Positions 27,461 through 55,004 of a stretch of DNA of 64,000 nucleotides are shown here, one piece after another. Under the pieces are notes generated by a model. It worked only from the letters and a program-made list of their open reading frames with translations, was not told where the DNA came from and did no database searches. Within the stretch, counting starts at the first letter, position 1. Every line of letters starts with the position of its first letter. Both the position numbers and the translations under genes were made by a program. The stretch is from Pseudidiomarina marina (lineage in GTDB: Bacteria; Pseudomonadota; Gammaproteobacteria; Enterobacterales; Alteromonadaceae): NCBI RefSeq assembly GCF_003987045.1, contig NZ_PIPZ01000002.1, forward strand, positions 1-64,000, written 5' to 3'.

Positions 27461-27492
27461 GAGGTGGGGTGCAGTCCAAGGACTGCACCCTC
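27461..27492. repeat. P-element copy 1 (GGGTGCAGTCC palindrome), intergenic
   Basis: Arms GGGTGCAGTCC (27467-27477) and GGACTGCACCC (27480-27490) flank a central AA, with GAGGTG/CTC extensions. It lies 5 nt after the stop of the beta-barrel gene. This is the short form of a 13-copy family in the window. Confidence 0.9.
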
Positions 27493-27496
27493 TTTA

Positions 27497-28111
27497 TCAG
27501 AAGTGGAAGTTGCCGCTTAGCGCGACGTAGCTGTTATCGGAGTCAACAAGTGTGTAACCAAGGCCTAAGCTGAATTCATTAGTGATGTAGTACTGGCCGC
27601 TAATGCTCCATTCTTGGTCGCTGTCGTCGTAGATATCGACGTGACGTACGTTTGCGTCGACTTCAAAAACGTCGGTGATACGGGTGCGCATACCAATTTG
27701 TGCGTTCCAACCGGTGTCGTCTTCGTTGAAGCTACCAACACCGCTGTCGACGTCAATTTCGCTGTACACCAAGCCAGCGCTGGCGTAGGCCACCATGTTA
27801 TTCATTTGATAGAACTTGAAGGCAAGGTTGCCGTACAGCGTGTTTGCGGTGGCATCGACGTCAACGCCGCTAACGGTGTAATCGTCGGTGGCATAGATGT
27901 AATTTACGTCGAAGAACCAGTCTTGATTAATGTGGCGGTTAAACTGCAGGCCGGCGCCGTTCAAGGTTTCGCCTTCGAGGTCGTAGTTGATATAGCTGAC
28001 GCCGAGCTTGTCGAAGCTAGGCTGTTGTAGCGTTTGTTGCGCTTGCGCGGTTGTTGTTAATGCGGCGATTGCTACCGCAGCAACTGACATTTTTGTTACG
28101 AAAGGTTTCAT
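27497..28111 (-). CDS. Outer-membrane beta-barrel protein (OmpA-type 8-stranded barrel)
   Basis: The 204-residue protein has a clear signal peptide (about 1-24, ending AQAQQ). It then shows alternating amphipathic strands rich in Tyr, Gly and Asp, with a terminal Phe (GNFHF) that is the usual barrel-assembly signal. About eight strands fit the small porin-like/OmpA-beta family. No peptidoglycan-binding domain follows. Its role could be adhesion, stress or transport; nothing in the context decides. P-element copies flank it on both sides. Confidence 0.75.
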   Translation of the reverse strand: MKPFVTKMSVAAVAIAALTTTAQAQQTLQQPSFDKLGVSYINYDLEGETLNGAGLQFNRHINQDWFFDVNYIYATDDYTVSGVDVDATANTLYGNLAFKFYQMNNMVAYASAGLVYSEIDVDSGVGSFNEDDTGWNAQIGMRTRITDVFEVDANVRHVDIYDDSDQEWSISGQYYITNEFSLGLGYTLVDSDNSYVALSGNFHF

Positions 28112-28154: not shown

Positions 28155-28187
28155 GAGGTGGGGTGCAGTCCAAGGACTGCACCCTTC
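28155..28187. repeat. P-element copy 2, intergenic
   Basis: A short-form copy, GGGGTGCAGTCC, AA, GGACTGCACCC with flanking GAGGT and TTC, lies between the beta-barrel gene start and the end of mscS. Confidence 0.9.
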
Positions 28188-29025: not shown

Positions 29026-29799
29026 TTACCATTTAAAGTTGTATCGGCCTTGAGCGTCCGGTTTTCCGATGAAAACTAACAGCTCTGAGATTGGCTGTGG
29101 CGTTTGCAACGTTGGTTTCATGCTGCCGGTTAAGCTGACTTGCGGCGCATCAATACGCCCGTTAACTTGTGCGTTTAATCGCAAACCAACAACGTTATTA
29201 TCGTCAATCACAACATTAATGCCGTTTTGAGCGTTGCATGAAAGCGTCGCTAAATAGTCGCCCAACTCATGCCATTGCTGGTTGATGCGCATTTCAGTGC
29301 GCTGCGCATTGATTGTAGCAGCTAACGCATCACATATCTTTCCGCTGTTAAAATCAGAAACTTGATAGTCAGTGATATCAAGTTCGAAGTTGCCAGCCAT
29401 GGTGATGGGTACGGGCAGTTTCAGTTGTTGGATCGCCGGCTGCATTGAACCTTGGAGATTACCTTTGAGCTGAGCCTGCGACATGCTCGCGTTGATGGTC
29501 GCGGTGCCGTACAGATAATTCTTCGACGGAATATCAAGTGCAATTTCAGCTTCTGCCATGAATAACTTCCACGGATTCAATCGCCATTGCACATCTTCCA
29601 GAATCAACGTGCCACCTGTTGGTAACTTCGCGCTAACGTTCGCGCGCCCGTTCCATATCGTACCTGCGGTGGAGGAGACGTGCAGTCCCTGCTCCGGAGC
29701 TAGGCCTGCCCCCCACTTAATCACTGAAGCTGGCGTTAGTGCCACCAACGCAATCAAATACAACGGAATTAACCACAACAACCAACGCCACGACATCAT
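29026..29799 (-). CDS. gspN: Type II secretion system protein N
   Basis: The 257-residue protein has one N-terminal membrane helix and a periplasmic domain containing GTIWNGRANV and repeats of short amphipathic strands, as in GspN. Its role in the T2SS is accessory and present only in some systems. It is the last gene of the twelve-gene operon and overlaps gspM by 4 nt. Codons near residues 29-40 (GLAPEQGLHV) derive from a degenerate long-form P-element (29676-29713), still in frame. Confidence 0.88.
   Translation of the reverse strand: MMSWRWLLWLIPLYLIALVALTPASVIKWGAGLAPEQGLHVSSTAGTIWNGRANVSAKLPTGGTLILEDVQWRLNPWKLFMAEAEIALDIPSKNYLYGTATINASMSQAQLKGNLQGSMQPAIQQLKLPVPITMAGNFELDITDYQVSDFNSGKICDALAATINAQRTEMRINQQWHELGDYLATLSCNAQNGINVVIDDNNVVGLRLNAQVNGRIDAPQVSLTGSMKPTLQTPQPISELLVFIGKPDAQGRYNFKW
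29676..29713. repeat. P-element copy 3, long form, inside gspN
   Basis: The left arm GTGCAGTCC, the central CTGCTCCGGAGC and a degenerate right part (GGCCTGCCCCCCAC) identify a decayed long-form copy. It encodes part of the gspN N-terminal region without shifting the frame. Confidence 0.75.
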
Positions 29800-30323
29800 T
29801 CGGCCACCTGCAAGCGACGGACGCGAACGATGCCAGGCTCACCGCCTTCGGTTGCATCGAGGTGTTCGATAACTAAACCGGCCTCGGTTTCGAGGTTTTC
29901 GATGAATTGCAGCAATGCATTAAAAGGCACTTGGTCGATGACCACCACTAAGCTGTCGGACTGCGGCTGCATGCGGGTGACTTCAATTTTGGCAGCGGTT
30001 GCGAGACGCGTCACACGCTCGCTCATACTGCCGCTCATGGCTGAGGTGGGGGTGCTGTCCTTGGACTGCACCCCACCTTGTTGTGACAAATAGCGGCCGG
30101 TATTTTCGCGCACCCACTGCAACAACTCTTGCTGCGCAGCAACTTTCGTTTCACGCTCGGCAATGCCATCGGCTAACGGCTTCCACGCAATGAAATACGC
30201 CAGGGTGATCACCAGTAACACCGCGGCGACGCTCACGAGCAGCTTTTCGCGCTGGTTCATTTGATTCACGCGCGCTTCTAAACCCGGAACACGTTGCATC
30301 AACTGTTGCAATAAACTCGCCAT
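29796..30323 (-). CDS. gspM: Type II secretion system protein M
   Basis: This 175-residue bitopic protein has a cytoplasmic tail, a membrane helix (about residues 28-45) and a periplasmic ferredoxin-like domain (about 98-175, ending VRVRRLQVAE). GspM pairs with GspL in the inner-membrane platform. The linker segment GGVQSKDSTPTS (about 82-93) is coded by an in-frame P-element. It overlaps gspN by 4 nt, and its first base is the last base of gspL. Confidence 0.9.
   Translation of the reverse strand: MASLLQQLMQRVPGLEARVNQMNQREKLLVSVAAVLLVITLAYFIAWKPLADGIAERETKVAAQQELLQWVRENTGRYLSQQGGVQSKDSTPTSAMSGSMSERVTRLATAAKIEVTRMQPQSDSLVVVIDQVPFNALLQFIENLETEAGLVIEHLDATEGGEPGIVRVRRLQVAE
30043..30080. repeat. 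P-element copy 4, short form, inside gspM
   Basis: The element GGGGGTGCTGTCC, TT, GGACTGCACCCC with GAGGT/ACCTTG ends lies in the linker between the GspM membrane helix and its periplasmic domain. On the gene strand it reads as Q-G-G-V-Q-S-K-D-S-T-P-T-S. Confidence 0.9.
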
Positions 30324-31537
30324 TACACATCCTTCTTCACAGTTAATGCGCCGCTGACTGCACCGCTTTGGTTATTCACAGGCCCCTGCTCCACAATCAC
30401 TTGGCCACCTTGATTCGCTACTTTACGGAAATTCTCTAAGCTTGCGAAACTCGTGGCGGTGACTTGCATGCGCAGGGTCTTGTCATCATATCGAATCAGC
30501 TCAAGTCTGATGTCGCGATTGGCTTGAAACGCACCTTCTAAATGCGCCAATAACTCAAGCGGCGATGACTTGGTGCCTTGCATGCCCAAGCTTTCAAGAT
30601 GGCGATTCAATTGCGAGCGCACATTCACAATGCGCTTCTCATTCGGAAACGCATCACGGTAGGTTTGCTCAATGGCTTGCTCAAGTTGCGCGCTTTGACT
30701 GCCGAGTTGCACATACTCAATGATCTGCGAGCTATACGCCACAGCCAGCAATACGCCAGCCGCGATAGCTGCTGGTTTGTAAGTGCTTGCTTTCACGCCT
30801 TTCCGCTTTTTGTGCTGCACGCGGAAATCTTGCTGACGTAGATTGATCATTGGCGGCGTTGATTTGCGCGCGTTATAAGTGGTTGCCACCACGCTCAATG
30901 GCACCTCGATGTCCATCTGCTCCACCGCCTGCAACTGCATGCCCTCGGTGACCACCGGCGCTAATGCAGTGTCCGTGGTGAAGCCGGTGTATTGCCCTGT
31001 GCGCACAATCACTGTGTCGCCTAGGGTGAGCGAGGTGGGGTGCAGTCCTTGCTCCGGAGCAGGGTCTGCACCCTCCTCTTCTGGTTTTGTCGGCGGTGCT
31101 GGCACCATAAAAATATCCGGGTAAATTTCGTCGCAGGAGATGTCCGCATGCTCAAGCGCCGACAGCCATGTCTGCATGGCATCGCGAGCAACAACAGCAA
31201 CGTGCAGTCCAAGGACTGCACCCCCCTTCTTCGCCGGCGGCCATGCGAAGTGCAACTCGGCGATATCCTGCGCCAATTCATCTTCCAAAGCGTTCGGCAC
31301 CACCTGCGGCAGCATGCGAATGGCGCTGCTTGGCAGCTCTACTTGCGTGAGCAACACATCGGTACCCGGCGCATAACAAATCACCTCGCGGCTACGCGCG
31401 TGATCGGTCAGTTGGCTTAACTCAGACAAATCATTCAGCGTTCCGCTTGCAATCAATTCGCTTTGCGCTGGGCTCCAAATCAGCCAGTGCAGCGGCTCGC
31501 GCTCAGCCGAGCTCAAGCGGATAAATAGTTGTTCCAT
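30323..31537 (-). CDS. gspL: Type II secretion system protein L
   Basis: The 404-residue protein has an actin-like cytoplasmic domain (about 1-245) that binds the GspE ATPase, a membrane helix (about 253-270) and a periplasmic ferredoxin-like domain (about 325-404). It anchors GspE to the platform. Two P-elements lie in frame: codons GGAVLGLHV near residues 106-114 and EEEGADPAPEQGLHPTS near 153-169. Both fall in loops of the cytoplasmic domain by their surroundings. Confidence 0.9.
   Translation of the reverse strand: MEQLFIRLSSAEREPLHWLIWSPAQSELIASGTLNDLSELSQLTDHARSREVICYAPGTDVLLTQVELPSSAIRMLPQVVPNALEDELAQDIAELHFAWPPAKKGGAVLGLHVAVVARDAMQTWLSALEHADISCDEIYPDIFMVPAPPTKPEEEGADPAPEQGLHPTSLTLGDTVIVRTGQYTGFTTDTALAPVVTEGMQLQAVEQMDIEVPLSVVATTYNARKSTPPMINLRQQDFRVQHKKRKGVKASTYKPAAIAAGVLLAVAYSSQIIEYVQLGSQSAQLEQAIEQTYRDAFPNEKRIVNVRSQLNRHLESLGMQGTKSSPLELLAHLEGAFQANRDIRLELIRYDDKTLRMQVTATSFASLENFRKVANQGGQVIVEQGPVNNQSGAVSGALTVKKDV
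31032..31078. repeat. P-element copy 5, long form, inside gspL
   Basis: This is a full long copy: GGGGTGCAGTCCTTG, central CTCCGGAG, CAGGGTCTGCACCC. It is flanked by GAGGT and TCCTC. On the gene strand it encodes E-E-G-A-D-P-A-P-E-Q-G-L-H-P-T-S. Confidence 0.9.
31202..31232. repeat. P-element copy 6, short form, inside gspL
   Basis: GTGCAGTCC, AA, GGACTGCAC with a C-rich extension lies 124 nt from copy 5 in the same gene. On the gene strand it encodes K-K-G-G-A-V-L-G-L-H-V. Confidence 0.9.
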
Positions 31538-31540
31538 AAT

Positions 31541-32779
31541 CTAGGGTTCTCCTGCGCCGCGATACAAAACTTCTGCGGTCTCGCTGGTGATTAAAAACTG
31601 GCTCTCAGTTGCCATGGTCAGGTCACCGTAGCCAATTTTTGCGTTTAATTGGAAATACTTACTTTTCACATCTAAATCGTCAAGTGCGCCACCGATGGTT
31701 TGTGCGGTCACGCCGTTTGGTGGCACGTTACCGACAAATTTAGGTTGTACGCCGCGCGTTGCGGCATCATTGATTGCCCCATTATTACGCGCATCGTCCA
31801 TACTTTCATAGCCACTTTCACGACGCGACGCCAAGTAGCTCGCGGCATCGCCCATCGACATCGCACCGACAGTCACCGCATGCAACAGCGCAGGCTGCTC
31901 TTTGCTCACGGTATTTATATTTAATTTCAATGTGTTATCACGCGGAATCACACAAACGTACGGTTTTATCTGCTGATAAATACGCGCTGTCACACCGCGA
32001 ACAAGGCGTAATTCACTCACGTGAACCAGCCAACTGTTTGCGGCGCGATACGGAAACTGCAAGCTTTGGTAATCGACCGACTCGGCACCATAACTGCCAT
32101 CAATGTTGTCATCGCTATCGAGCCAATCGGCGAGCGAATCGACAATCACATCCACCGCATACGACTCTATATTTTCGTCTGCCGCCATAAACAGCATGCG
32201 GAGCTGCGCTTTGCGGCGTTCGCGTAAAACGTCAGGAGCCAGTGAGCCACCGGTATTGGTACCTGTGTTCGCACCGGTGTTAGCATTGTTGCCCGTGGTA
32301 CCGGTGTTGGTACCGGTGTTGGTACCGCTTTGGTTGCCTTGCGGCGCAGTTGAAGGGGGTGCAGTCCCTGCTCCGGAGCCGGAGCTGACCCCGTCTTCAA
32401 CCCGCAACGCGTTCAGATTAAAGCAACTCTGCAAATCTTGTATCTCGCCTTTAATGGCGCCACCATCAACCGGGTAGATGCTGCCGCTCTTGGTTTGCTG
32501 ATACCACATTTGTTGCTGGTGCACGACACCGTCACTTTCGCTGATTTCGCGCTGCAGCAATTCTCGTACAATTTCTTCCGCGCTCAACCAATACCAATAG
32601 GCTTGTTCGGCTTGTTGAAAGTTGGCAGTTCGCAACACCGTGGTTTGTAAGCGCCCACTTAGCGTGACGGCCATGACCGAGACCAGCGCGACAACTAGTA
32701 GCACCATGAGTAATGCCACACCGCGCTGGCGTTGCGGCTGGGCAGCGCATGCTTGCAGATTACGGCGACGGTTGTTCAT
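31541..32779 (-). CDS. gspK: Type II secretion minor pseudopilin GspK
   Basis: The 412-residue prepilin-like protein has the processing site RQRG/VALLMVLLVV near residue 20. The large globular domain shows CFNLNAL near 118 and later DNTLKLNINTV. GspK caps the pseudopilus tip with GspI and GspJ. An in-frame long-form P-element gives DGVSSGSGAGTAPPSTAP (about 128-145). It is followed by a Thr/Gly/Asn repeat (NTGTNTGTTGNNANTGANTG, about 152-171), so the loop is much enlarged compared with usual GspK (about 320). It overlaps gspJ by 20 nt. Confidence 0.9.
   Translation of the reverse strand: MNNRRRNLQACAAQPQRQRGVALLMVLLVVALVSVMAVTLSGRLQTTVLRTANFQQAEQAYWYWLSAEEIVRELLQREISESDGVVHQQQMWYQQTKSGSIYPVDGGAIKGEIQDLQSCFNLNALRVEDGVSSGSGAGTAPPSTAPQGNQSGTNTGTNTGTTGNNANTGANTGTNTGGSLAPDVLRERRKAQLRMLFMAADENIESYAVDVIVDSLADWLDSDDNIDGSYGAESVDYQSLQFPYRAANSWLVHVSELRLVRGVTARIYQQIKPYVCVIPRDNTLKLNINTVSKEQPALLHAVTVGAMSMGDAASYLASRRESGYESMDDARNNGAINDAATRGVQPKFVGNVPPNGVTAQTIGGALDDLDVKSKYFQLNAKIGYGDLTMATESQFLITSETAEVLYRGAGEP
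32230..32335. repeat. Short tandem repeat coding the Asn-Thr-Gly-rich loop of GspK
   Basis: Tandem copies of a 12-nt unit (GGTACCGGTGTT and variants) in the coding strand give repeated N-T-G-T peptides. The tract ends 17 nt from P-element copy 7. Copy number could change by slippage. Confidence 0.75.
32352..32395. repeat. P-element copy 7, long form, inside gspK
   Basis: GGGGGTGCAGTCCCTG, central CTCCGGAG, then a diverged right arm CCGGAGCTGACCCC. It is in frame with gspK. Confidence 0.85.
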
Positions 32780-33365
32780 TTAAACCTCCGTCATTAATCA
32801 AAAACACCCGTGTAATGGTGCCCCAGCTTTCCGTTTCAATGGTAATTTCGAGCGCTGGCGGTAAACCTTCAATGTCGTTGTTGTCACGCGAGGTGGGGGT
32901 CTGTCCTTGGACTGCACCCCTCTTAAGCGGTTTGGCGGTGAAGGCGGTGACGCCTTCAAGCACCACGCGCGATTTCGGCTCTGACGATTCGGTCACATCA
33001 ACAAAGTTGAAATGCTCACGTACCAGGTTACCTTCGCGCACCAAATAGGCGACAGGCTGCAACTCACTGCGCGGAAATAGGCCAAGCGGATTAAACCAAC
33101 CCGAGCGAACAAAACCCAAGCGTCCTTCCTCGATGAAAATATAACGCCCGGTAGGATTATCTCGCGCGACAATTTGGCGAATATCTTGCTCTAAAATCAG
33201 CATACTGTACTGGAGCTTTTCGAGCCGTGCGATAGCGGTTTCACTCTGTTCGCTGGTGCGCATAATGGCATTAATCACCGATGCGGACGCCAATCCAATC
33301 ACCGCCATGATCACAACCGTGACCAACACTTCTACGAGAGTAAAACCGCGGCGCTGCTGCATCAT
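32760..33365 (-). CDS. gspJ: Type II secretion minor pseudopilin GspJ
   Basis: The 201-residue protein has the prepilin site RRG/FTLVEVLV (residues 4-12), a hydrophobic helix and a globular domain with RYIFIEEGRLGFVRSGW typical of GspJ. It joins GspI and GspK at the tip of the pseudopilus. Codons RGAVQGQTPTS (about 149-159) come from an in-frame P-element placed between two strands. It overlaps gspI by 4 nt. Confidence 0.92.
   Translation of the reverse strand: MMQQRRGFTLVEVLVTVVIMAVIGLASASVINAIMRTSEQSETAIARLEKLQYSMLILEQDIRQIVARDNPTGRYIFIEEGRLGFVRSGWFNPLGLFPRSELQPVAYLVREGNLVREHFNFVDVTESSEPKSRVVLEGVTAFTAKPLKRGAVQGQTPTSRDNNDIEGLPPALEITIETESWGTITRVFLINDGGLNEQPSP
32890..32925. repeat. P-element copy 8, short form, inside gspJ
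   Basis: GGGGGTCTGTCC, TT, GGACTGCACCCC with GAGGT and TCTT ends. It carries two changes in the left arm and is in frame with gspJ. Confidence 0.88.
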
Positions 33366-33769
33366 GGGCGCGCACCGTCATCATTAGATTCGGCGTCAGG
33401 GCCTAAGTATCGGCTCAACGTCACCAACGAGCCATCGGTGGCGTCAGGCGAATTGGGCTGCTCGGCGAACACACGTACCGTGACATAAAACACATCGTCG
33501 GTTTGGGTTTTAACCACTTGCGAGCGCCAATACCACTGGCGCGAACCGACCAATTCCGTGCCGCTTGCGCCGTTTTTCGGTGGATACTCAAGACTCACAC
33601 GCGCCATCGCATTCGCTGCCGCATATTGCGCCATCGACTTGTCTTGCATGTAGTTTAAGTCGTTTAAGTGTTGACTGGTGGCGGCCACGGCAGCGAGTGC
33701 TGCTAAGGCGAAAATGCCCAGCGCAAACATCACTTCAACCAGGGTGAATCCGCGGCTATTTCTATACAT
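33362..33769 (-). CDS. gspI: Type II secretion minor pseudopilin GspI
   Basis: The 135-residue prepilin-like protein has the cleavage site SRG/FTLVEVMFALGIFALA. Its short globular domain contains the conserved ANAMARV segment. It initiates assembly of the pseudopilus tip. It overlaps gspJ by 4 nt, and its first base is the last base of gspH. No repeat lies inside it. Confidence 0.93.
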   Translation of the reverse strand: MYRNSRGFTLVEVMFALGIFALAALAAVAATSQHLNDLNYMQDKSMAQYAAANAMARVSLEYPPKNGASGTELVGSRQWYWRSQVVKTQTDDVFYVTVRVFAEQPNSPDATDGSLVTLSRYLGPDAESNDDGARP

Positions 33770-34392
33770 CAGTCGTCACGCCCCAGATCACGTTTGAGTT
33801 CGATATCGATGCCATCGGTGCTGGCGATACGCCAACTGACGGGTTCGCCAACAAGACCCACGTTGCGAACAAATAATTCAAACGGTGGGAGATCGCCGCT
33901 ACCAAAAATAAATAATTGGGGTGTGGGTTCACTCGGCGGTTCATCGTCATCGGAACGCGTGCCGAGATCGTCATCGTCCACCGCGAATACGTCGTTTAAA
34001 TCGGTGTCGTCTTGTTGCAAGAGTTCGAGATCGCCAGCTTCAACCGACAACTCAATATCGGTACTGAGTTCGGTTTGCCGCAAGCCTCGGTGGGTAAGAT
34101 TTTGCCAGCGTCCGTCAGAAAACTCTAAAAAACGATACGTGTTGGCATCGTCAATCCGTAAGCCGAGAATGGCGTGGCGCACTAGGGCGTACTCACGCGC
34201 ATAACGGATGCGTTCGTACAATACCCGCGCGTTATCGGCAGTTTCGTCGTCCTTGCTGTCGGGTACGACAAAGCTGACGGTGAGCGCCAGCATGCCGATA
34301 ACCGCCATGGTGACCATGACTTCGACGAGGGTGAAGCCTTGGTGACTCGTTCGGCTTCTGCGATTAGCGGCATGATTCGTGGGTAGCATCAT
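33769..34392 (-). CDS. gspH: Type II secretion minor pseudopilin GspH
   Basis: The 207-residue prepilin-like protein has the site HQG/FTLVEVMVTM near residue 20 and the usual GspH globular fold (YERIRYAREYALVRHAILGLR). An acidic insertion of about 25 residues (about 130-155, rich in Asp) makes it longer than most GspH (about 165-195). The gene is separated from gspG by a REP hairpin (34396-34431). Confidence 0.9.
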   Translation of the reverse strand: MMLPTNHAANRRSRTSHQGFTLVEVMVTMAVIGMLALTVSFVVPDSKDDETADNARVLYERIRYAREYALVRHAILGLRIDDANTYRFLEFSDGRWQNLTHRGLRQTELSTDIELSVEAGDLELLQQDDTDLNDVFAVDDDDLGTRSDDDEPPSEPTPQLFIFGSGDLPPFELFVRNVGLVGEPVSWRIASTDGIDIELKRDLGRDD

Positions 34393-34395
34393 TAG

Positions 34396-34431
34396 CGGCC
34401 TTCGGCCACCCGTCGTGGAACGACGGGTTAC
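34396..34431 (-). repeat. REP element copy A; supplies the stop codon of gspG
   Basis: On the minus strand the element begins GTAACCCGTCGTTCCACGACGGG, followed by a second hairpin GGCCGAAGGCC. The TAA of GTAA is the gspG stop codon. It is a variant of the GTAGCCCGGCG family and sits in the gspG-gspH gap, where it may limit downstream translation or stabilise the gspG message. Confidence 0.85.
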
Positions 34432-34844
34432 TCGATGTTCCAGTTGCCGATGTCGTCGTCAGTGCCGGTTTGACCGTCAGGGCCGGCAGAGAAGATGTCG
34501 ATATCGCCGAATTCACCTGGGCTTAATAACAGGTATTCGTTGCCCCATGGGTCGGCTGGTAAACGTTGAATGTAGCCGCCGCGACGGTAGTTACGTGGGC
34601 GCGGGTCAACGTTTGGCTCTTCGGTTAGAGCTTCGAGGCCTTGTTCGGTGGTTGGAAAGCTGCCGTTATCGAGGCGATATTGCGCCAAGGCGTTTTCGAG
34701 CGCGATGATATCGGTGCGCGCTTTTTGGCGGTTGGCTTGGTCAGCTGAGCCGAGCACGTTTGGCAAAATTAATGACGCGAGTAAGCCGAGAATGGCGATA
34801 ACGACCATTACTTCGATAAGGCTGAATGCGGATTGTTTTTTCAT
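34428..34844 (-). CDS. gspG: Type II secretion major pseudopilin GspG
   Basis: The 138-residue protein has the prepilin helix FSLIEVMVVIAILGLLASL and the GspG body (LDNGSFPTTEQGLEAL, ADPWGNEY, SAGPDGQTGTDDDIGNW with calcium-binding aspartates). It polymerises into the pseudopilus. The residue before the cleavage site is Ala (QSA/FSLIE) rather than the usual Gly. The stop codon is formed by a REP element. Confidence 0.95.
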   Translation of the reverse strand: MKKQSAFSLIEVMVVIAILGLLASLILPNVLGSADQANRQKARTDIIALENALAQYRLDNGSFPTTEQGLEALTEEPNVDPRPRNYRRGGYIQRLPADPWGNEYLLLSPGEFGDIDIFSAGPDGQTGTDDDIGNWNIE

Positions 34845-34853
34845 GGTGTTCCC

Positions 34854-36095
34854 TTAAAGTCCTACGCTTTGGTTGAGCTCAAGTATTGGTTGAATGATGG
34901 CGAGCACGATGAGTAAGACCACGCCCGCCATGACAACGATCAGTGCTGGCTCAAATATTTTGAGTGCGACGTTCATGGTGGTTTCGAAATCGCGGTCTTG
35001 GTTATCGGCGGCGCGGCCGAGTAACTGCTCGAGTTCGCCTGATTTTTCGCCGGCGGCAATCATATGCAGCATCATTGGCGGAAATAATTTCGTTTGTGCT
35101 AGCGCGGCGCGCAGCGATGAGCCTTCCCGCACCCGGTCACAGGCATCTTCCACGGCAATTTGCATCGCACGATTCGTCAGCACACGGCCGGTAATTCGTA
35201 AGCCATCGAGCAACGGCACTGCCGACGCCGACAAAATACTTAACGTGCGGGCAAAACGGGCGGTATTCACGCCTTTAATCACGCGCCCAAATAGGGGCAC
35301 TTTCAATACCCAGGCATCGAATTTGTCGCGTCGCGATGGTTTTCGTAATAGTTGTGCGCCAACCACTAACCCCACTAAAATTATCCCCAGCAAAAATAGG
35401 CCATAATTTTGTAAGAATTGACTGACAGCGAGTAAGAACGTGGTGGTTGGCGGTAAGTCTTGGTCCAAGCCGCTAAATTGCTCGACAATTTGTGGCACCA
35501 CACTCACTAACAAGAAAATGATCACGCCAATGGCAACGAGCGTCAAAATGGTTGGATACACCAACGCCTGCACCAATTGGCCTTTCAACCGGTTGCGTTG
35601 CTCGGTGTAGTCTGCGAGGCGGCTTAACACTTCATCCAAATGACCTGAGCGCTCGCCCGCAGCCACCATCGCGGTGAATAATTTATCGAATACGTGCGGA
35701 TACTCTGCCATGGCTTCGGCCAACGAATAGCCTTCCACCACTTTTGAGCGTACGGCCATGATCAACTTCTGCAGGCGCGGCTTGTCGGTTTGCTCCGATA
35801 CGGCAAACAAGGCTTGTTCAATCGGCAGCGCAGCCGCAACTAACGTAGCCAGCTGACGGGTAATCAACGCTAAATCGGCAGCGCCAACACCGCGGGTTTG
35901 CAAGCGCTTGAGGAGGGGTGCAGACCCTGCTCCGGAGCTGGGACTGCTCCCCCCCTCCTCTGCCAATTCGACAGCAACAGGTATCAGCCCCTGCTCGCGC
36001 AACTGCGCGCGCACTTGGCGTTCGGTGTCCGCTTCAATGACGCCTTTGGTTTTGCGGCCGCTGGCGTTTAACGCCTGAAATGCATACGCTGCCAC
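34854..36095 (-). CDS. gspF: Type II secretion inner-membrane protein GspF
   Basis: The 413-residue protein carries two T2SSF repeats (about 77-200 and 280-402) with three membrane helices in the usual arrangement. It forms the core of the inner-membrane platform. The start is GTG at 36095, and the gspE stop lies within its ribosome-binding region (GAGGAGTAA). The linker before the first domain (EEGGSSPSSGAGSAPLLKR, about 46-64) is coded by an in-frame long-form P-element. Confidence 0.94.
   Translation of the reverse strand: MAAYAFQALNASGRKTKGVIEADTERQVRAQLREQGLIPVAVELAEEGGSSPSSGAGSAPLLKRLQTRGVGAADLALITRQLATLVAAALPIEQALFAVSEQTDKPRLQKLIMAVRSKVVEGYSLAEAMAEYPHVFDKLFTAMVAAGERSGHLDEVLSRLADYTEQRNRLKGQLVQALVYPTILTLVAIGVIIFLLVSVVPQIVEQFSGLDQDLPPTTTFLLAVSQFLQNYGLFLLGIILVGLVVGAQLLRKPSRRDKFDAWVLKVPLFGRVIKGVNTARFARTLSILSASAVPLLDGLRITGRVLTNRAMQIAVEDACDRVREGSSLRAALAQTKLFPPMMLHMIAAGEKSGELEQLLGRAADNQDRDFETTMNVALKIFEPALIVVMAGVVLLIVLAIIQPILELNQSVGL
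35910..35960. repeat. P-element copy 9, long form, inside gspF
   Basis: GAGGAGGGGTGCAGACCCTG, central CTCCGGAG, CTGGGACTGCTCCCC and CTCCTC ends make this the longest copy (51 nt, 17 codons). It lies in the linker between the N-terminal segment and the first T2SSF domain. Confidence 0.9.
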
Positions 36096-36098
36096 CGG

Positions 36099-37628
36099 TT
36101 ACTCCTCGCGCGTCACGCGCAGCACTTCTTCTAAGGTGGTGACGCCGGCAATGACTTTCGCCAAACCGTCATCACGAATGGACGGTGCCAACGCACGCAC
36201 ATATTTTTCAATGGCTTGCTCGCCGTGACCGTTGTGAATGAGTTCACGTACGCGCTCATCCACCACTAATAATTCATGAATACCGGTACGGCCGCGATAG
36301 CCGGTGTGGTTACATTTCTCACAGCCAACGGCACGATACAATTGCGCACCGCCATCCACGGCAGCGTCGGCAACATACGACAGCTCGTCAGCAGATGCCT
36401 GATACGGTTCTTTGCAGTCATCGCACAAGGTACGCACCAAGCGCTGTGCCAGCACACCCAATAACGACGACGATAATAAAAACGGCTCGACGCCCATATC
36501 TTCTAAACGGGTAATTGCGCCAGCGGCGGTGTTGGTGTGCAACGTAGATAGCACCAAGTGACCAGTCAATGACGCCTGCACACCAATTTGTGCGGTTTCA
36601 ACGTCACGGATCTCACCCACCATCACCACATCAGGGTCTTGGCGCAAAATGGCACGTAAACCGCGGGCAAACGTCATGTTCACCTTCGGATTCACCTGCA
36701 TCTGCCCGATGCCTTCGATAGAATACTCAATCGGGTCTTCCACCGTCAAAATATTACGGTCGCGCGAGTTAATTTCCATCAAGCCAGCATACAAGGTGGT
36801 GGATTTACCGGAGCCCGTCGGGCCGGTCACCAAAATGATGCCATGCGGCTTTTTAATCAGTTGCGAGAAAATACGGCGATTGGCTTCGGTCATGCCAAGT
36901 TGTTCAAGGTTCAAACGTGCGTTGTTCTTATCGAGCAAACGCAGCACCACGCGCTCGCCGTGGTTCGATGGCATGGTGGATACCCGCACATCAACCGCGC
37001 GACCGGCAATCAGCAAGCTGATGCGCCCATCTTGCGGCACTCTTTTCTCAGCGATGTCCAACTGTGCCATAACCTTAATGCGCGACACCAGCAACGAACT
37101 CAGCTTGCGGTTCGGGCGAATCACTTCACGCAACACGCCGTCGATGCGAAACCGCACCAACAGATCTTTTTCAAAGGTTTCAATGTGAATATCAGAAGCG
37201 CCTTCTTTGATGGCTTCTGAAAGCATGGCGTTAATCAGTTTGATAATTGGCGCGTCGTCTTCGCTTTCCAGTAGGTCTTCGGTTTGCGGCAACTCATCGG
37301 CGAGCGAAAATAGGTTACTTTCGTTGCCAATGTCTTCCATCAACTGCTTCGCTTCGGACGAGTCGCGTTGATAGGCTTGCGTTAAAATGGCTTCGAATTC
37401 GTCGGCACTGTGCTCTTGCAATACGAACGGGGCACCCAAAACGCGGCGCACTTCAAGCAAGGCTTGCGGGCTCACGCCATGGCGCGCATGCACCACGGCA
37501 TCATTTGCGGCGCCATCATCCGAGGCACCGGCGTACGCCACTACCACGCCGTGGCGTTTCGCAAACGCAAATGGCAACCGTCGCGGTGCCACTTGCGCGG
37601 CCACATTCGCGATATCAGTCATTGCCAC
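36099..37628 (-). CDS. gspE: Type II secretion ATPase GspE
   Basis: The 509-residue secretion ATPase has an N-terminal GspL-binding part, Walker [10 protein letters not shown] (about 270-278), the Asp box [10 protein letters not shown], Walker [13 protein letters not shown], the His box and a zinc-binding pair CDDC/CEKC (about 405-450). It powers pseudopilus assembly. The start is GTG at 37628 or ATG 6 nt later; the former overlaps gspD by 14 nt. Confidence 0.95.
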
Positions 37629-39723
37629 TGCCCTTTTTCTCTTCTTCCATGTATTTCTCGAATGACGGTGGCAACGTCAACGGGCCATCCCACTCTGGTA
37701 ACACCGGCTGGTCAGTCAGCGGCATCAACGAGATGCCATCTTCGTCCGCTTTGATTTGTTCGGCGCGAATGTAGTTGTATTTGCGCGACGAAATCTGCGT
37801 TGCTGAAGTACCATCGCGCACAATGGTTGGGCGTAAAAACACCATCAAATTACGCTTTTGACGCGAGGTTGAGGTGCTCTTAAACAAATGACCTAAGAAC
37901 GGAATGTCACCCAAAATTGGAACCTTTGATTCCGATTCTTGTACGTCTTCGTCAATCAAACCGCCGAGCACAATCGTTTGCCCATCGTCCGCCATCACCA
38001 CGGTTTTCAGTTCACGTTTGTTGATGGTGATATCCACTGCCGTCGCGCCACTAATGCTCGACACTTCCTGCTCAATTACCAACTGCACGCCGCTGCCTTC
38101 GTTAATTTGCGGGGTGACTTTCAATTTAATACCCACGTCTTCACGTTCTACGGTTTGGAACGGGTTATCGTTGTTTGAACCGGTGGTTGCGCCAGTGATG
38201 GTCGGCACCGACTGCCCCACCAAGAACGAAGCTTCTTCGTTATCCACGGTCATAATTGACGGCGTCGCCAAAATGTTCGAGTTAGTGTTGGTAGTGACCG
38301 CTTGCAAAATCGCACCCCAGTCGTTTTTCACCACGCCAACCATCATGCCGTTGACGTTTTGCAAAACCTGCGCCAATAGCGACACATCGCCTGGACGGTC
38401 GGGTTCACGGGTGGTCACAAAATTACCATCAACCACAGTAGTGGTTTCGGTACCCGGCTGCTCACGCGCTAAATACGCACCTGCTGCAATCTGACCGATT
38501 GGCGCCTGACGACCGTTGTTATATTGCACCATGCCGCCGTCTTCGCTAATCCATTGCAGGCCGAAATCGACGCCATCGCCTTCCATAATTTCAACAATAA
38601 TCGCTTCAACGTGCACCTGTGCACGACGAATATCGAGCTGACGAATGACGCTTTCTAAACTCGTCAATAAATCGGGGGCGGCAGTAATCACCAGTGAGTT
38701 CGATGCATCATGCGCGCTAATTGAAATTTCACCGCTTGAAGCGCTCGAACGGCGCGCTGCGGCTGTTGTGCCTGCTGCCGCCGAAGCAGACTCTTTTTCA
38801 GCCTGCAAACTCTGGCTCACGCCCTGCAATACTTCCACTAACTCTTCGGCTTTAGCGTATTTGAGATAATAAACACGCGTGTTGCCTTCACTTTTTAAAT
38901 CTTGGTCAAGCTGATTGATGAGTTTGATCACGCGATCGCGTGCACGCGGCTCGCCACTAATGACGACACTGTTGGTGCGCTCATCGGCCACAATTTTTGG
39001 AATCAATAACGGTGGTGTGCCGTCGTTGGCTTTCTCAAACAAACTTAACGCAATGCGCACCACTTCTGATGCCGAGGCATATTCCAATTTGACCACGGTG
39101 ACATCTTGGTCACCGGCGCGGTCCACGCGCTCAATAATTTCGACGAGTCGCTGCACAGTTTCGCTGCGACCGGTAATCATGATCACGTTTGACGGGTCAT
39201 AGCTCACCACGTTGCCGCCGCCACTTTGATCATTCAGCAAGCGTAATAGCGGTGCCAATTCACGCACGCTGACGTTCGCCACAGGTACAACACGCGTCAC
39301 CAGTGTGTCGCCACCCAATGAGTTGTCATCGACCACCGGAATGGCGCCGTTGCGGGCGTCTTTATCGCGCATGACTTTAATCACGCCCGATTCCATTTCA
39401 ATGGTTGCGAAACCGTATACGTCCAACACGTTTAAGAAGAACTGCCAGTACTGGCTTTCGTTCATCACATCGTAGCTGCGCACATCAATGCGACCGCGCA
39501 CGTCTGGGTCAATAATGATGGTACGGCCTAGGTTGCGCCCCACCACCTGAATAAATTCGGTGATGTCCGTGTTCTTAAAGCTGGCGGCGTATTCAACCGG
39601 CTCGTCGGCGGTTTGGCGTTGCTGCTGCGTCGCTTGGCGTGATTGCTGCGCGCTAACATCGTGGAAGGTTCCCGAGAGCGCGGCGCCGAGTGTGATGGCC
39701 AATGCCAATGAGGTTTTACGCAT
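37615..39723 (-). CDS. gspD: Type II secretion secretin GspD
   Basis: The 702-residue outer-membrane channel has a signal peptide (about 1-25), N0 to N3 domains (about 45-340) and a C-terminal secretin domain (about 430-630). The secretin domain shows [15 protein letters not shown] and [16 protein letters not shown]. It forms the exit pore for folded exoproteins. The extreme C-terminus ([20 protein letters not shown]) fits an S-domain. No gspS pilotin gene is seen nearby. Confidence 0.95.
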
Positions 39724-39732
39724 ACTTGTCCC

Positions 39733-40635
39733 TTAATTCCTTTGATCTTGGTCTTGCACAACTTCACTAGGAAGGTCTCGAATATCGAGTTGCAAGTCGA
39801 CCGATTCATTGCCGCGCAGCACGGTAACCGTGGCTTGTGTCATATCACCCAGCTCGCTGGTAATTTTCATCGCGGTACTTATATTGGTTAAATCTTGGCC
39901 ATTAATCGCCACCGCTAAATCGCCGTCACGAAAGCCGGCTTGGCGGAATAATTCTGGATTTTTGCCAGCGCTTAAGCGGTAACCACGAATACCGTCACCA
40001 CCGCGCACTGGGGTAATTTGAATAAACTCGAGAAGGCTTTCAGGATTCACGTCGGCGGCTGTTATTTGTGAGTCGGTGTCATCGCGACGCGGGCTAGAGC
40101 CACCTTCACGCACGGCGCGACTGGAGGTGCGGACATCGCTGGTCATGTTTGCCATGGTGAGCGACAGCCCTTCGCTCAACTCACCAATGCCTTCGAGTTC
40201 GAGGGTTTCAAGGCGACCGTTATTGTCGAGAATCACGCGGTCGGCGTAGATTTCTTTAATCGTCACCTGTGTGCCTTCAAGCTTGTCGCCCATCACGTAC
40301 ACTTCTTGCTTGCCGCTACGCTCAATAATGGCAGCCGAGCGCTCCGGCACATTCGATGCCGAGACGCCTAATAAGCGAATGTTCAACGAAGTTTTCGGCG
40401 CATTCGACGACGCTTGGGGCGTTCCAGCGCTTGCGGCACCGAATAAATCGAGCGCCACAATAGAGCGCGCCGAGTACGACGACTCAGCACTTTGTGTGGT
40501 GATTTGAAGCGGCCCCGAAGGTACCTCGCTAGCTGGCGTAATAAGCTGCCAGGTTAGTTGCGCGCCAAACCATACTGCGGCTACTGCGCAAACCGCAGTA
40601 ATCAATGCGTTGACGTGCGAGTTCTGTATCTGCAT
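39733..40635 (-). CDS. gspC: Type II secretion protein GspC
   Basis: The 300-residue inner-membrane protein has an N-terminal helix (about 9-28), an HR domain (about 85-150, including IRLLGVSASNVPERSAAIIE) and a C-terminal PDZ domain (about 200-290). It connects the platform to the secretin and helps choose substrates. It is the first gene of the gspC-N operon. Its promoter should lie in the 150-nt gap shared with divergent hslO; I could not pick a clear minus-strand promoter there. Confidence 0.93.
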   Translation of the reverse strand: MQIQNSHVNALITAVCAVAAVWFGAQLTWQLITPASEVPSGPLQITTQSAESSYSARSIVALDLFGAASAGTPQASSNAPKTSLNIRLLGVSASNVPERSAAIIERSGKQEVYVMGDKLEGTQVTIKEIYADRVILDNNGRLETLELEGIGELSEGLSLTMANMTSDVRTSSRAVREGGSSPRRDDTDSQITAADVNPESLLEFIQITPVRGGDGIRGYRLSAGKNPELFRQAGFRDGDLAVAINGQDLTNISTAMKITSELGDMTQATVTVLRGNESVDLQLDIRDLPSEVVQDQDQRN

Positions 40636-42286: not shown

Positions 42287-43885
42287 CTACTTTTTCTTCT
42301 TTAGGAACTTCATGAGGCGCTTGCGCTTGCGGGTTTGCGAGAGCGTGAGCTGGTTTTTGCGACCGGCGTATGGGTTGACGGACTCGCGGAACTCGATTTT
42401 GATGGGGGTGCCCATCACGCCTAATGATTTACGGAAGTAATTCATCAGATAGCGTTTGTACGAGCCTGGTAGCGAGTCAACTTGGTTGCCGTGAATGATG
42501 ACGCGTGGCGGGTTGTAGCCGCCGGCGTGGGCGTACTTGAGTTTGACGCGGCGTCCGCTCACCAATGGTGGTTGATGATCTTCCACTGCGGTTTCCAAAA
42601 TACGCGTTAATTTGGCGGTGCCAACACGCGCCGATGCTGAGGCATAAGCTTCAAGTACCGATTCGAACAAGTTACCGACGCCACTACCGTGTAGTGCCGA
42701 GATAAAATGCACGCGGGCAAAATCGACGAAGCCTAGGCGACGGTCGAGTTCACGCTTGATTTCTTCACGGTGATCATGCGACAAGCCATCCCATTTATTG
42801 ACGGCAATCACGATTGAGCGGCCAGCGTTCAGGGCGAAGCCAATCAAGTTTAAGTCTTGATCAGAGACGGTTTCGCGCGCGTCGATCACAGCGATAACTA
42901 CGTTTGCGTCTTCAATCGCCTGCAAGGTTTTAATTACTGAGAACTTTTCAACGGTCTCGTCAATACGGCCACGACGGCGTACACCGGCGGTATCGATTAA
43001 GATATATTGGCGGCCTTCACGCTCCATCGGAATATAAATTGAGTCACGGGTGGTGCCTGGCATGTCGTATACCACTACCCGTTCTTCACCAAGAATGCGG
43101 TTGGTCAGTGTTGACTTGCCCACGTTCGGACGGCCGACAATGGCGAGTTTTAATGGCAGTGCATCGTAGTCGATTTCGTCGTGACTGCGGTCGCCCAACT
43201 GGCCAATGATATTACCTTCGTGATCGATGATATTGCCATCGGCATCGACAATATTACCGTCGGCGTCGTAAACGTTGCCGTCTTCGTCGGGTTCGACGAT
43301 ATTACCATCAGAATCAATTGGATTGCCGTCGTCGTCGAGGTTGACCGCCACGTCGTCGGAGCCGGCGTTGCGCACGCGCACGTCCGGATATTCATCCAGC
43401 AGCGGATCAAAGCATTCCTGTAGGAGTTGCTCAACGCCACGACCGTGTGCAGCAGCAATGCCATGCACATCACCTAAACCGAGTTCGAAAAAGTCGGCGC
43501 GAGCAGCATTGGCGTCAATGCCATCGATTTTGTTAGCAACCACGTAGGCCTTTTTGCCAAGACGGCGCAAATGCGTCGCAATGCCCATGTCAGCCGCCGT
43601 GATACCGTCACGTGCGTCAACCATGAATAGCACCACGTCTGCTTCATCAATAGCGCGCAATGACTGTGATGCCATTTCAGCATCGATACCTTCTTCGTCA
43701 CCATGAACACCTGCGGTGTCGATGACAATAAATTGGTAACCGTCGTAGTTGGCCTGGCCGTATTTTCTGTCTCGCGTTAAGCCAGGAAAGTCTGCAACCA
43801 AGGCGTCCCGAGTACGGGTAAGCCGATTAAATAAGGTTGATTTGCCCACATTTGGGCGCCCTACCAGGGCAACTACGGGTAACAT
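42287..43885 (-). CDS. der: Ribosome assembly GTPase Der (EngA) with an acidic heptapeptide-repeat linker
   Basis: The 532-residue protein has two G domains: G1 P-loop GRPNVGKST at residues 9-17 with NKID at 118-121, and a second P-loop GRPNVGKST at about 251-259 with NKWD. A KH-like C-terminal domain follows ([17 protein letters not shown]). It acts in 50S assembly. Der usually has about 490 residues; the extra length is in the linker. Six tandem repeats of D-x-D-G-N-x-x lie at residues 184-227. It is 6 nt downstream of bamB, in the standard order. Confidence 0.95.
43205..43336. repeat. Tandem 21-nt repeat coding the DxDGN linker of Der
   Basis: About six units encode D-x-D-G-N-x-x (for example [21 protein letters not shown]), one with two extra residues. 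They lie between the two GTPase domains. The units differ at synonymous and non-synonymous positions, so the array is not a fresh expansion. Confidence 0.85.
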
Positions 43886-45079: not shown

Positions 45080-45681
45080 GAACCCGCCACAATGCTGTTG
45101 AGTTTGATCTCGGCGATGCCTTGCGCACCAGCGTCGAGAGCGGCTTGATATGCGGCACGTGCGCCAGCGTTGTCACCTTTGGCTAACAAGATATCGCCTT
45201 TTAATTCGGCGGCTTGTGCTTTGAAAGCTTCAACTGATTCAGCTGCTTGGGCTGCCGCTAATGCGGCGTCGTACTGCTCTTGTGCGAGCAAGACGCGAGC
45301 TTGACGAATATCTGCAACAGCGCGCAATGCTGGTTGTGCGTTATCGCGTACGGTTTGCAACGCACTGACTGCAGTTGCTAAGTCGTTGTTGTCTACGGCG
45401 TGTTTGGCGAGTTCAAGTGCAGCTAACATGGCATAGGTGCTGGTACTTGAGCTCACAAACTCTTGCGCTGCGGCTGTGCTATTTTCTTGGTCAGCTTCGA
45501 GTTGCACTAAAATGCTCTCGAACTTTTCAGAAGCGGCTTCTTGGTCGGCGCGCACTTGCGCGTCGTAGTAACGCCAGCCGTAGAAAAGCGCAAAACCTAC
45601 CACGAGGCCGGCAACGATGCCTTTGCCGTGTTCGTTCCAAAACTGTTTAATTCGTTCGACTTGTTGTTCTTCAGTTTCCAT
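45076..45681 (-). CDS. yfgM: YfgM, ancillary SecYEG translocon subunit
   Basis: The 201-residue protein has one N-terminal membrane helix (GIVAGLVVGFALFYGWRYY, about residues 20-38) and a periplasmic TPR-like domain. With PpiD it assists protein transfer from SecYEG to periplasmic chaperones. The ATG at 45681 is chosen because GGAG lies 6 nt upstream; a TTG 12 nt earlier overlaps that site. Confidence 0.93.
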   Translation of the reverse strand: METEEQQVERIKQFWNEHGKGIVAGLVVGFALFYGWRYYDAQVRADQEAASEKFESILVQLEADQENSTAAAQEFVSSSTSTYAMLAALELAKHAVDNNDLATAVSALQTVRDNAQPALRAVADIRQARVLLAQEQYDAALAAAQAAESVEAFKAQAAELKGDILLAKGDNAGARAAYQAALDAGAQGIAEIKLNSIVAGS

Positions 45682-45708
45682 TTTTAACTCCAAAAACGAT
45701 ATTAGCTA

Positions 45709-45775
45709 TTAGCTATTGGATATTAGCTGATAGCGAGAACGGTTCTTCTAATATCTAATATCAAATATCTAATAG
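45709..45775. repeat. ATATTAG-type heptamer hairpin 1, overlapping the hisS 3' end
   Basis: The left arm is built of ATTAGCT/ATATTAG units (45709-45743) and the right arm of CTAATAT units (45748-45775), separated by a short spacer. The right arm runs into hisS: the last codons L-L-D-I and the stop are read from repeat units (CTATTAGATATTTGA on the gene strand). Confidence 0.85.
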
Positions 45776-47008
45776 CGCCGTTGCACTTTCCGCCACTGCA
45801 GGGGCGGTGGTGCGGTCGCGCAGGTGCTTTAACTCGAAATCGGTGTCGCGAACGAGCAAGGCATAGGTGGCGCCTGACTTGTCGGCTTTCGCCAATTTCT
45901 TTTTCATGTTCTGGGTGCCGCTGTGCAACTGAACTTTCAGCTGTGGCTTGGCACTTCGAATTTGTTCGGCAACGGCTGGGGCGATTAGTTCCGCCGCTTC
46001 AGTTGCTGCAATCACGTAAATATCAATGGCTTGTTCCGCTGGAATTTTGCCTTGCGACTCCAGCAACAAGACCAAGCGTTCCATACCCATGGCAAAGCCA
46101 ACGGCTGGCGTTGGTTTACCGCCAAGTTGTTCCACTAAACCATCGTAACGGCCGCCAGCACACACGGTGCCTTGTGCCCCAAGCTCAGTGGTCACCCACT
46201 CAAACACGGTACGGTTGTAATAATCGAGGCCACGCACCAAACGCTCATTCAACACATATTGAATGCCTGCAGCATCAAGACGCTTGCACAGACCGTCAAA
46301 ATGCTCACGCGATTCGTCGTCCCAATACTCTGACAACTTCGGGGCATCTGCAAGTACCGCTTGAGTTTCTGGCGATTTGCTATCGAGAACACGCAGCACG
46401 TTGGTGTCTAAACGACGCTTCGAATCTTCATCCAATTTGTCTTCATGAGCACGTAAAAACTCTCGCAACGCCTCGCGATAACGCGCACGCGCTTCATTTG
46501 ATGCCAACGAGTTCATTTGCAATTCGACTTGCTCACTAATGCCAAACGCTTGCCACAGGCGCGCCGATAACAAAATCACTTCGGCGTCAATATCGGGGCC
46601 ATCCATACCGAAGGCTTCAATACCGAACTGGTGAAACTGGCGATAGCGGCCTTTTTGTGGACGTTCGTGACGGAACATTGGGCCGAGATACCACAATCGC
46701 TGCGTTTGGTTATACAGCAAGCCATGTTCATTGCCCGCACGCACACAACTTGCGGTGCCCTCTGGACGCAACGTTAAGCTGTCACCGTTGCGATCATCGA
46801 AAGTGTACATTTCTTTTTCGACAATATCGGTCACTTCGCCAATGGAGCGCTTGAAAAGATCGGTGCTCTCGAGCACCGGCATGCGGATTTCTTGGTAAGT
46901 ATATTGGGCTGCAACCTGACGGATCACGCCTTCAACGTATTGCCACGCTGGCGATTGATCCGGCAGGATGTCGTTCATGCCGCGAATTGCTTGAATATTT
47001 TTTGCCAC
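45761..47008 (-). CDS. hisS: Histidyl-tRNA synthetase
   Basis: The 415-residue class II synthetase starts at GTG ([15 protein letters not shown]). It shows motif 2 ([25 protein letters not shown] region), the histidine-specific signature [15 protein letters not shown] and motif 3 ([13 protein letters not shown]). The C-terminal anticodon-binding domain is present. The final residues (LLDI) are coded by a heptamer repeat. Confidence 0.96.
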
Positions 47009-48195: not shown

Positions 48196-48200
48196 AAATT

Positions 48201-48281: not shown

Positions 48282-48286
48282 TTTTA

Positions 48287-51357: not shown

Positions 51358-51373
51358 GGAGAAAACCTTAGTG

Positions 51374-52000: not shown

Positions 52001-52032
52001 GGAGGGGTGCAGTCCAAGGACTGCACCCTCCT
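52001..52032. repeat. P-element copy 10, short form, abutting the ndk promoter
   Basis: GGAGGGGTGCAGTCC, AA, GGACTGCACCCTCC: a 15-nt arm with one bulge. It touches the ndk -35 box. Confidence 0.9.
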
Positions 52033-52722: not shown

Positions 52723-52756
52723 AGGAGGGGTGCAGTCCAAGGACTGCACCCCTCCT
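52723..52756. repeat. P-element copy 11, short form, perfect
   Basis: A perfect 16-bp inverted repeat (AGGAGGGGTGCAGTCC and its complement) around AA, 4 nt after the PagL-like stop codon. As RNA it would be a strong hairpin followed by TTCCCCCCTC, not a clean T-run. Confidence 0.93.
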
Positions 52757-53370: not shown

Positions 53371-53404
53371 AAGAGGGGTGCAGTCCTTGGACTGCACCCC
53401 TCTT
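53371..53404. repeat. P-element copy 12, short form, perfect
   Basis: A perfect 16-bp inverted repeat (AAGAGGGGTGCAGTCC and its complement) around TT, starting 2 nt after the msrA stop. It might act as a 3' hairpin for msrA and, from the other side, for hipA. Confidence 0.93.
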
Positions 53405-54970: not shown

Positions 54971-55004
54971 GGAGGCGGGGTGCAGTCCTTGGACTGCCCC
55001 CCAC
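54971..55004. repeat. P-element copy 13, short form, after fdx
   Basis: GGAGGCGGGGTGCAGTCC, TT, GGACTGCCCCCC with one change in the right arm, followed by CACTTTTTT on the plus strand. It lies 5 nt beyond the fdx stop. Confidence 0.9.

Follow-up and report, generated by a model that had tools for sequence, protein, structure and literature searches.

In-frame palindromes in the type II secretion genes of Pseudidiomarina marina are probably REP elements of a Y1 transposase

We found a family of short palindromes in a 64,000-nucleotide stretch of the Pseudidiomarina marina genome (contig NZ_PIPZ01000002.1, positions 1 to 64,000; the window). Of its 13 copies there, seven lie in frame inside genes of the gspC-N operon for type II secretion (T2SS), namely gspN, gspM, gspL (two), gspK, gspJ and gspF, and six are intergenic. 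We interpret these palindromes, with a probability of about 0.84, as repetitive extragenic palindromic (REP) elements, i.e., non-autonomous repeats of a Y1 (HUH-tyrosine) transposase of the RAYT/TIRYT kind. Such a transposase would cut and join a folded single strand, seeding new copies chiefly in the neighborhood of its own gene. Intergenic copies would have settled mostly just past stop codons, where a strong hairpin might be harmless or serve as a 3′ end. Because the genes of the T2SS operon abut or overlap, the copies surviving within it would be the in-frame ones in tolerant linkers; these would be translated, with the Cys codons of the element gone and the remainder largely kept. In the following, G000 is the window genome (2.41 Mb, 10 contigs), and its relatives include P. 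tainanensis PIN1 (G011), P. gelatinasegens R04H25 (G024) and the metagenome-assembled genome (MAG) Idiomarina sp. 34-48-12 (G023); C- and L-numbers denote contigs and stretches, respectively.

The palindrome has the arms GGTGCAGTCC/GGACTGCACC and exists in two types, one short and the other long with a CTGCTCCGGAGCAG core; the copies located in the genome span 22-51 nt by arm scan. A pair scan recovered 15 arm pairs in the window, as against 0 (19/20) or 1 (1/20) in first-order Markov simulations, and arm matches with at most two mismatches number 30 versus a shuffle mean of 10.0. The operon (29026..40635, minus strand; F, J, K, L, M and N recognized by Pfam and the rest by order and sequence) includes gspN (29026-29799), gspM (29796-30323), gspL (30323-31537), gspK (31541-32779), gspJ (32760-33365) and gspF (34854-36095). 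The palindromes, given here without strand, are distributed over these genes as follows: the gspN copy (29679..29712; peptide GAGLAPEQGLHV) is of the long type with partly degenerate arms, and the gspM copy (30049..30074; GVQSKDST) is of the short type and one base from the ideal element, with a Cys codon turned to Ser. In gspL there is a long-type copy at site 2 (31037..31074; GADPAPEQGLHP), the site of a residue gain, and a short-type copy at site 1 (31199..31224; GGAVLGLH). The long-type gspK copy (32356..32394), with one degenerate arm, opens a 62-residue low-complexity segment; the short-type gspJ copy (32895..32920) has three mismatches in one arm; and the long-type gspF copy (35915..35952) falls in the linker that precedes the first T2SSF domain and has Ser at both positions where the ideal element encodes Cys. 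An earlier note on this DNA had reported the seven genic copies, and our scan and gene calls bear it out on their positions, frame, coding nature and placement in linkers. They also agree with its statement that no other gene of the window has a copy, with the reservation that the scan missed the degenerate gspK copy and others may have escaped it too.

Across the genome, we located 29 copies, 21 of them intergenic, seven in gsp genes and one in a DUF294/CBS nucleotidyltransferase gene (L027:7793-7814); G024 likewise has a copy in its DUF294/CBS nucleotidyltransferase gene (L067:6152-6242). A covariance model built from 23 copies, many of them among the 29, returned at least 54 matches on both strands at about 27 places, and an Rfam search of window positions 26000-56000 gave no match. 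Apart from the window, the copies occupy C1:351-358 kb (six), C1:1158-1171 kb (eight), C1:1131.8 kb (one, in the DUF294 gene) and C4:165 kb (one). The C1:1158-1171 kb and window clusters probably form one genomic region, since cysD and gspF are 37 kb apart in G024, and in G000 cysD stands near the end of C1 and gspF 35 kb into C3. Copies are not spread evenly over genes: the gspC-N operon, 11.6 kb of the genome, holds seven of the eight located genic copies. Directly before the GGTGCAG arm, 19/29 copies display the tetranucleotide GT[AG]G, whereas the remaining five of the six offsets examined gave 0 or 1; the same foot precedes 7/17 copies in G011, 11/14 in G024 and 1/4 in G023.

The intergenic copies are the better preserved in their arms (perfect 10-nt arms in 18/21, with degenerate arms in several genic copies, i.e., those of gspN, K, J and F). 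They stand between convergent (6), unidirectional (11) or divergent (4) genes, fold with energies of -16.5 to -58.0 kcal/mol and in 16/21 cases lie within 20 nt of a stop codon; published REPs, in the portion of the account compared, are likewise mostly extragenic near gene 3′ ends (PMC3733652). The earlier note left out the six in the window (27468, 28162, 52006, 52729, 53377 and 54979), as well as the other genomic clusters. They extend over 27466..27491 (7 nt past the stop codon of an OMP_b-brl gene), 28160..28185 (17 nt past that of an mscS-like gene), 52004..52029 (between divergent ndk-like and pagL genes), 52727..52752 (10 nt past the pagL stop codon), 53375..53400 (between convergent genes, 8 nt past the stop codon of an msrA-like gene) and 54977..55002 (8 nt past that of a ferredoxin-like gene). 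Palindrome copies stand on both sides of the OMP (27497-28111), pagL (52161-52718) and msrA-like (52835-53368) genes and of L026:8215-10134, all of them conceivable mobile cassettes. The abundance of strong hairpins just past stop codons would also be expected if the copies in the T2SS region were selected functional DNA or RNA sites (3′ ends, mRNA-stability hairpins or binding sites) with the transposase only as a remote origin, which we consider possible but doubtful. To its credit, G008 and G025 have an ordinary-looking hairpin in the spacer between msrA and the next gene, where G000 has the copy at 53375..53400. However, the U tracts behind the strong GC-rich stems are mostly weak (0-6 T in 8). 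Of the terminator-like sites at 50000-56000 of the window, whose number matches chance (8 versus 7.3), just one is a copy, and the locations of copies differ among species.

The interpretation as REP elements gains from the families seen in relatives. With at most one mismatch, the 22-nt core is present in only three of 58 relatives (G011, G023 and G024), and the exact pattern occurs in 12 stretches of a one-genome-per-species collection. Only two of these are outside the group, each a single place, in a Halobacteriales MAG and in Marinobacterium nitratireducens (L022, L023). That the gsp genes were imported from a palindrome-rich donor, or that the matches are due to chance, would suit the clustering of the copies but has next to no probability in our view: the rarity of the pattern outside the group and the near-absence of pairs in the simulations speak against it, and the gsp, mscS, msrA, ndk and fdx-like genes have the same surroundings in many genus members, on which ground operon import was set aside. 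A looser arm search recovered a near-identical sister family (B; arms GGGGTGCAGACC; the window family is A) in G012, G018 and G020, with copies in gspD, E, F, J, K, L and N. Searching 15 T2SS loci for hairpins added ACTTGCGGNCCCAGCT in G015, GGGGCWGCCCC in G025, CTAAGGGGCAGGCACTTAAG in G014 and GTAGCCCG in G007. In G025, hairpins lie in gspD, E, F and H, with extra cores in gspC, J, K, L and N, and in G014 the palindrome lies in the first codons of gspK, with a half site in gspM. The GspF linker is occupied in G000, G011, G024, the family B species, G015 and G025, and families A and B are read in the same phase at F, J, K and L site 2 and in a different one at N. One-mismatch arms resembling chance were left out of these tallies (the family B GspC rows, GspL nt 1173 of G000, GspF nt 530 of G024 and nearly all rows of G008, G019, G003 and G021). 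Copies were also seen in beta-CASP metallo-hydrolase genes of G012, G018 and G024, and in G012 one near the C-terminus of a histidine kinase (L063:8860-8893, L066:16365-16446, L068:4835-4856 and L060:11332-11376).

Several of these families are physically linked to a Y1 transposase gene. PF01797 matches are present in 19/26 genus members, which we sorted into IS200 proper (G015, G022), type 1 and type 2, leaving a partial G016 gene unsorted. Type 1 (RGNNRQ/RGNNKQ, N-H-u-H and YIELNP/YIEMNP) is found in G013, G025, G006, G017, G014, G004, G002, G018, G020, G012 and G015, and type 2 (DH-H-C and NPVKHG) in G011, G021, G019, G008, G007, G003 and probably as second genes in G012 and G020; these second genes and the G015 type-1 gene were typed by score and place. 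Type-1 proteins have a Y1_Tnp core (PF01797 above cut-off), the HUH motif N-H-u-H, the Y motif YIELNP and a length near 240 aa. A palindrome stands on at least one side of the type-1 gene in 10/11 cases (9/10 loci by hairpin search plus G015, on both sides), G017 having none, and family B palindromes lie on both sides of the PF01797 gene in G018, G012 and G020. In G020, the longest frame of this gene contains a family B copy toward its 5′ end, probably ahead of the true start, and another copy lies 7 nt past its stop. G025 points to what may have happened in the window: its type-1 gene stands between the omp gene and the mscS-like gene that follows gspN, in a spacer of 1018 nt that reads palindrome-transposase gene-palindrome, whereas the matching spacer in G000 (with the copy at 28160..28185), G011 and G024 is 89-102 nt with one palindrome. 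Because a lone palindrome remains at this place, we posit that a type-1-like gene was probably lost from the G000 lineage. The G000 copies, with no transposase gene in the genome, accordingly look orphaned, and the copies in T2SS linkers would have been tolerated because the unit once sat beside the operon. A candidate remnant, a weak match at L028:13552-13698, overlaps a palindrome and is probably just that; a whole-genome search found none.

The presence of palindromes in gsp genes depends on the distance to the transposase gene. In G025, G014, G018, G020, G012 and G015, gspF and the type-1 gene are 7.2-13.1 kb apart, and each of these six species has its own palindrome in gsp genes. In contrast, G006, G004 and G017 have the gene 102-140 kb from gspF, and G013 and G002 have it on another contig, 17-63 kb from cysD; none of these five T2SS loci has the GGGCWGCCC core of their own family. 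This core was counted in 23 T2SS loci (G010 has one match, in gspL), and by our reading copies of it stand beside msrA in G002, G006, G013 and G017. The copies also gather around the gene: on the single contig of G015, 32 arm matches form 21 palindrome places, 10 of them no more than 30 kb and 15 no more than 120 kb from the type-1 gene (expected 0.4 and 1.7), 21/26 places in G004 are on the 318-kb contig carrying the gene, and of the 61 places of G025, those among the matches listed are on C7, with the type-1 gene, and C6. This agrees with the build-up of REPs within 200 kb of rayt genes described, in the part of that study compared, for three marine gammaproteobacteria (PMC2817692). As, among these species with a type-1 gene, gsp copies occur only where the gene is near, the concentration in T2SS that the earlier note had stressed stands as a count and is better explained by nearness than by any aim at secretion.

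The palindromic elements of Rickettsia (RPE) are read in frame within protein genes, and the earlier note had taken them as the best precedent. An element of this kind, adapted to sites within protein genes and needing no Y1 transposase, would account for palindromes in frame in linkers of several proteins. We nevertheless deem it very unlikely and have set RPE membership aside, since most located copies (21/29) are intergenic and, in the related families, palindromes stand beside a Y1 transposase gene and occur in gsp genes only when that gene is close. Furthermore, RPE-4 and RPE-6 are said, in the section on intragenic REPs, to match intragenic repeats of R. conorii counted as CGTC REPs (PMC3733652). 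REP elements with a Y1 transposase are therefore the closer precedent.

Once in the gsp genes, the palindromes appear to be translated and kept, as judged from their codons. Among genic copies with at least 70% identity to the ideal elements (42 copies, 84 arms, six genomes), not one of the arms in which TGC would be read as an in-frame Cys codon is intact (0/22), versus 49/62 of the other genic arms (Fisher 1.6e-11). Because orthologous copies are not independent, we also collapsed the count by family, gene and arm, with the same outcome (0/7 versus 15/19, p 5e-4); intergenic arms are intact in 41/42. Between G000 and G011, compared over whole elements, codons for identical residues are the same at 56/63 element positions versus 2048/3353 elsewhere (Fisher 2.4e-6), and between G000 and G024 at 31/41 versus 711/1369. 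In tallies using only the better arm for gspF, K and N, the gspJ, gspL site 1 and gspM elements agree between G000 and G011 at 75/75 nt, and the family B right arms (arms exact in G018, two of them lacking a G020 counterpart) keep 20/20 third positions versus 1512/1998 across the genes. The G000-G011 codon identity and the unchanged elements are what selected functional DNA or RNA sites would also produce. Nonetheless, the excess comes from gspJ, L, M and N (45/47), and gspF and gspK (11/16), each with one arm degraded, do not show clearly raised identity (5/8 and 6/8).

How the palindromes came to occupy the linkers can be gauged from anchored linker lengths in 23 genomes. The GspK linker has 62 aa versus 11-17 in species without a recognized copy (28 in G015), and that of GspL site 2 has 21 versus 5-8 (11 in G015). 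The others are close to such species: 18 versus 17-20 for GspF in 14/15 of them (29 in G014), 20 versus 17-24 for GspM, 15 versus 12-18 for GspN, 20 versus 15-31 for GspJ and, at GspL site 1, 8 aa in G000 as in 21/23 genomes. The GspF linker is clearly longer in family B and G015. Hence, the claim of the earlier note that every copy adds 10-17 residues fails, a clear gain being confined to GspK and the second GspL site; the peptide was also looked for in relatives without the palindrome, which do not carry it. By alignment to PDB sequences, the copies lie between folded parts in GspF and GspK, precede the matched domain in GspM, fall in GspJ at a loop also found in a solved GspJ, and in GspL lie at a short indel in the cytoplasmic domain and at the point where the matched stretch ends. 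Two routes may lead to this state, namely insertion with loss of the old linker under selection on length, or replacement of linker codons. A stronger version, in which palindromes overwrite linker codons at nearly constant length and the genic copies are kept in step with their family by concerted evolution in coding DNA, is a tentative idea that we rate as unlikely. If true, the linkers of a secretion machine would be species-specific text written by a single-strand DNA-editing enzyme encoded next door.

Several observations weigh against an origin of the palindromes as REP elements of a type-1-like transposase. First, no Y1 transposase was found in G000 by PF01797 or protein searches. The protein search detected no type-1 gene either in G011 and G024, whose palindromes belong to the G000 family, or in G023, G010 and G022 (a weak G011 match being its type-2 gene), so that the link of the G000 family to the gene comes through the sister family. 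There, the GT[AG]G foot is nearly absent (1/71 copies), with GAGG instead. Second, the type-1 proteins (four) score 69-74 bits with the NCBIfam model REP_Tyr_transpos (NF047646), under its cut-off of 80, the two type-2 proteins scoring 150 bits, and the survey section on TnpA-Y1 subclass 2.1 records no REP-like sequences (PMC6006769). Third, six of the 29 copies form the second cluster at C1:351-358 kb, with no type-1-like gene in G000 as cause. Fourth, five of the seven genic sites have linkers of ordinary length, unlike the prediction of plain insertion. Fifth, the species in the nearness contrast are not independent, as G012, G018 and G020 are one clade and the five distant ones share a family. 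Finally, movement of the palindromes is presumed.

Other repeats accompany the family in the window. A second palindrome family of the GTAG type (GTAGCCCGGCGTTCTACGCCGGGCTAC) is present at 34393-34431, 55431-55469, 56439-56463, 56549-56587, 60604-60644, 60806-60844, 62853-62893 and 62994-63032. In G007, which has a type-2 transposase some 6 kb from its gspF, GTAG-type repeats give the peptide RGRTTGY in GspC, E, I and J. Two families of AT-rich inverted repeats, apparently intergenic in the window, read CTAATATCTAATATC and CGTTATTCGTTATTCG (45681-45788, 51358-51460 and 57459-57566; 48183-48294, 55339-55433 and 61558-61717). A 31-bp tandem repeat of five units occupies 60643-60797, and 21-bp repeats (43208-43338) lie within a der/engA-like gene (42287-43885).

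In-frame intragenic REPs and the accumulation of REPs near rayt genes are already known. Our literature search found no paper on REPs in T2SS genes of Idiomarina or Pseudidiomarina, and the portions of the papers compared contain no case of one operon's linkers being repeatedly occupied by different families, of dependence on the place of the transposase, of missing Cys codons or of synonymous conservation. The gsp palindromes offer an example from nature of selfish DNA that has turned into coding sequence for proteins. They also form a natural series, in which several families of one genus entered proteins of the same operon and the copy-less and distant-transposase species serve as controls. 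The series allows one to study the way in which REPs get into coding sequence, by insertion or by overwriting, and whether the transposase acts mainly near its own gene. The Cys-codon test, in turn, offers a simple sign, read from sequence only, that REP-derived peptides are made and selected.

Set beside known systems, the palindromes resemble intragenic REPs, which, in the main text of the published account, occur in frame in genes of several species and are thought to be tolerated in linkers or loops (PMC3733652). They differ in that those are often in DNA repair genes, with no T2SS case in that main text, whereas most genic copies here are in one operon, in several species and from different families. 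With RPE they share the in-frame position in protein genes; they differ from it in being mostly intergenic and in having a transposase neighbor in relatives. As for the RPE trait of an insertion adding peptide, a gain is clear at 2/7 sites only. The likeness to the REP/RAYT system (REPtron, GT[AG]G type) lies in short, multicopy, species-specific palindromes with GT[AG]G in 19/29 copies, mostly intergenic behind genes, tied to an IS200-like Y1 transposase and accumulating near it, as in the portion of the rayt study compared (PMC2817692). Unlike a REPtron, the gene of the relatives falls below the NF047646 cut-off and is absent from G000, the sister family has GAGG, and the copies number only tens, several of them within the genes of one operon. 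The type-1 protein recalls the TIRtron/TIRYT system (TnpA-Y1 subclass 2.1, Bertels group 1) in its N-H-u-H, its YIELNP and its length of about 240 aa, as given in part of the survey (PMC6006769), and some TIRYTs are reported, in the passage on them, with multicopy terminal repeats (PMC3733652). However, NHIH is not among the motifs printed in the survey table, and one type-1 protein reads YIEMNP (PMC6006769). A Pfam search of three type-1 proteins gave no helix-turn-helix (HTH) match, and GGGGWSAS was not seen in the associated repeats, which read GGGGTGCAG, GGGGCAGCC and similar. On these sequence features, we do not assign the type-1 gene to TIRYT subclass 2.1. The repeats here are, moreover, palindromic, dispersed by tens and inside genes, where the subclass 2.1 part of the survey saw no REP-like sequences (PMC6006769); dispersed palindromes are now added to a kind of transposase for which a survey had recorded none.

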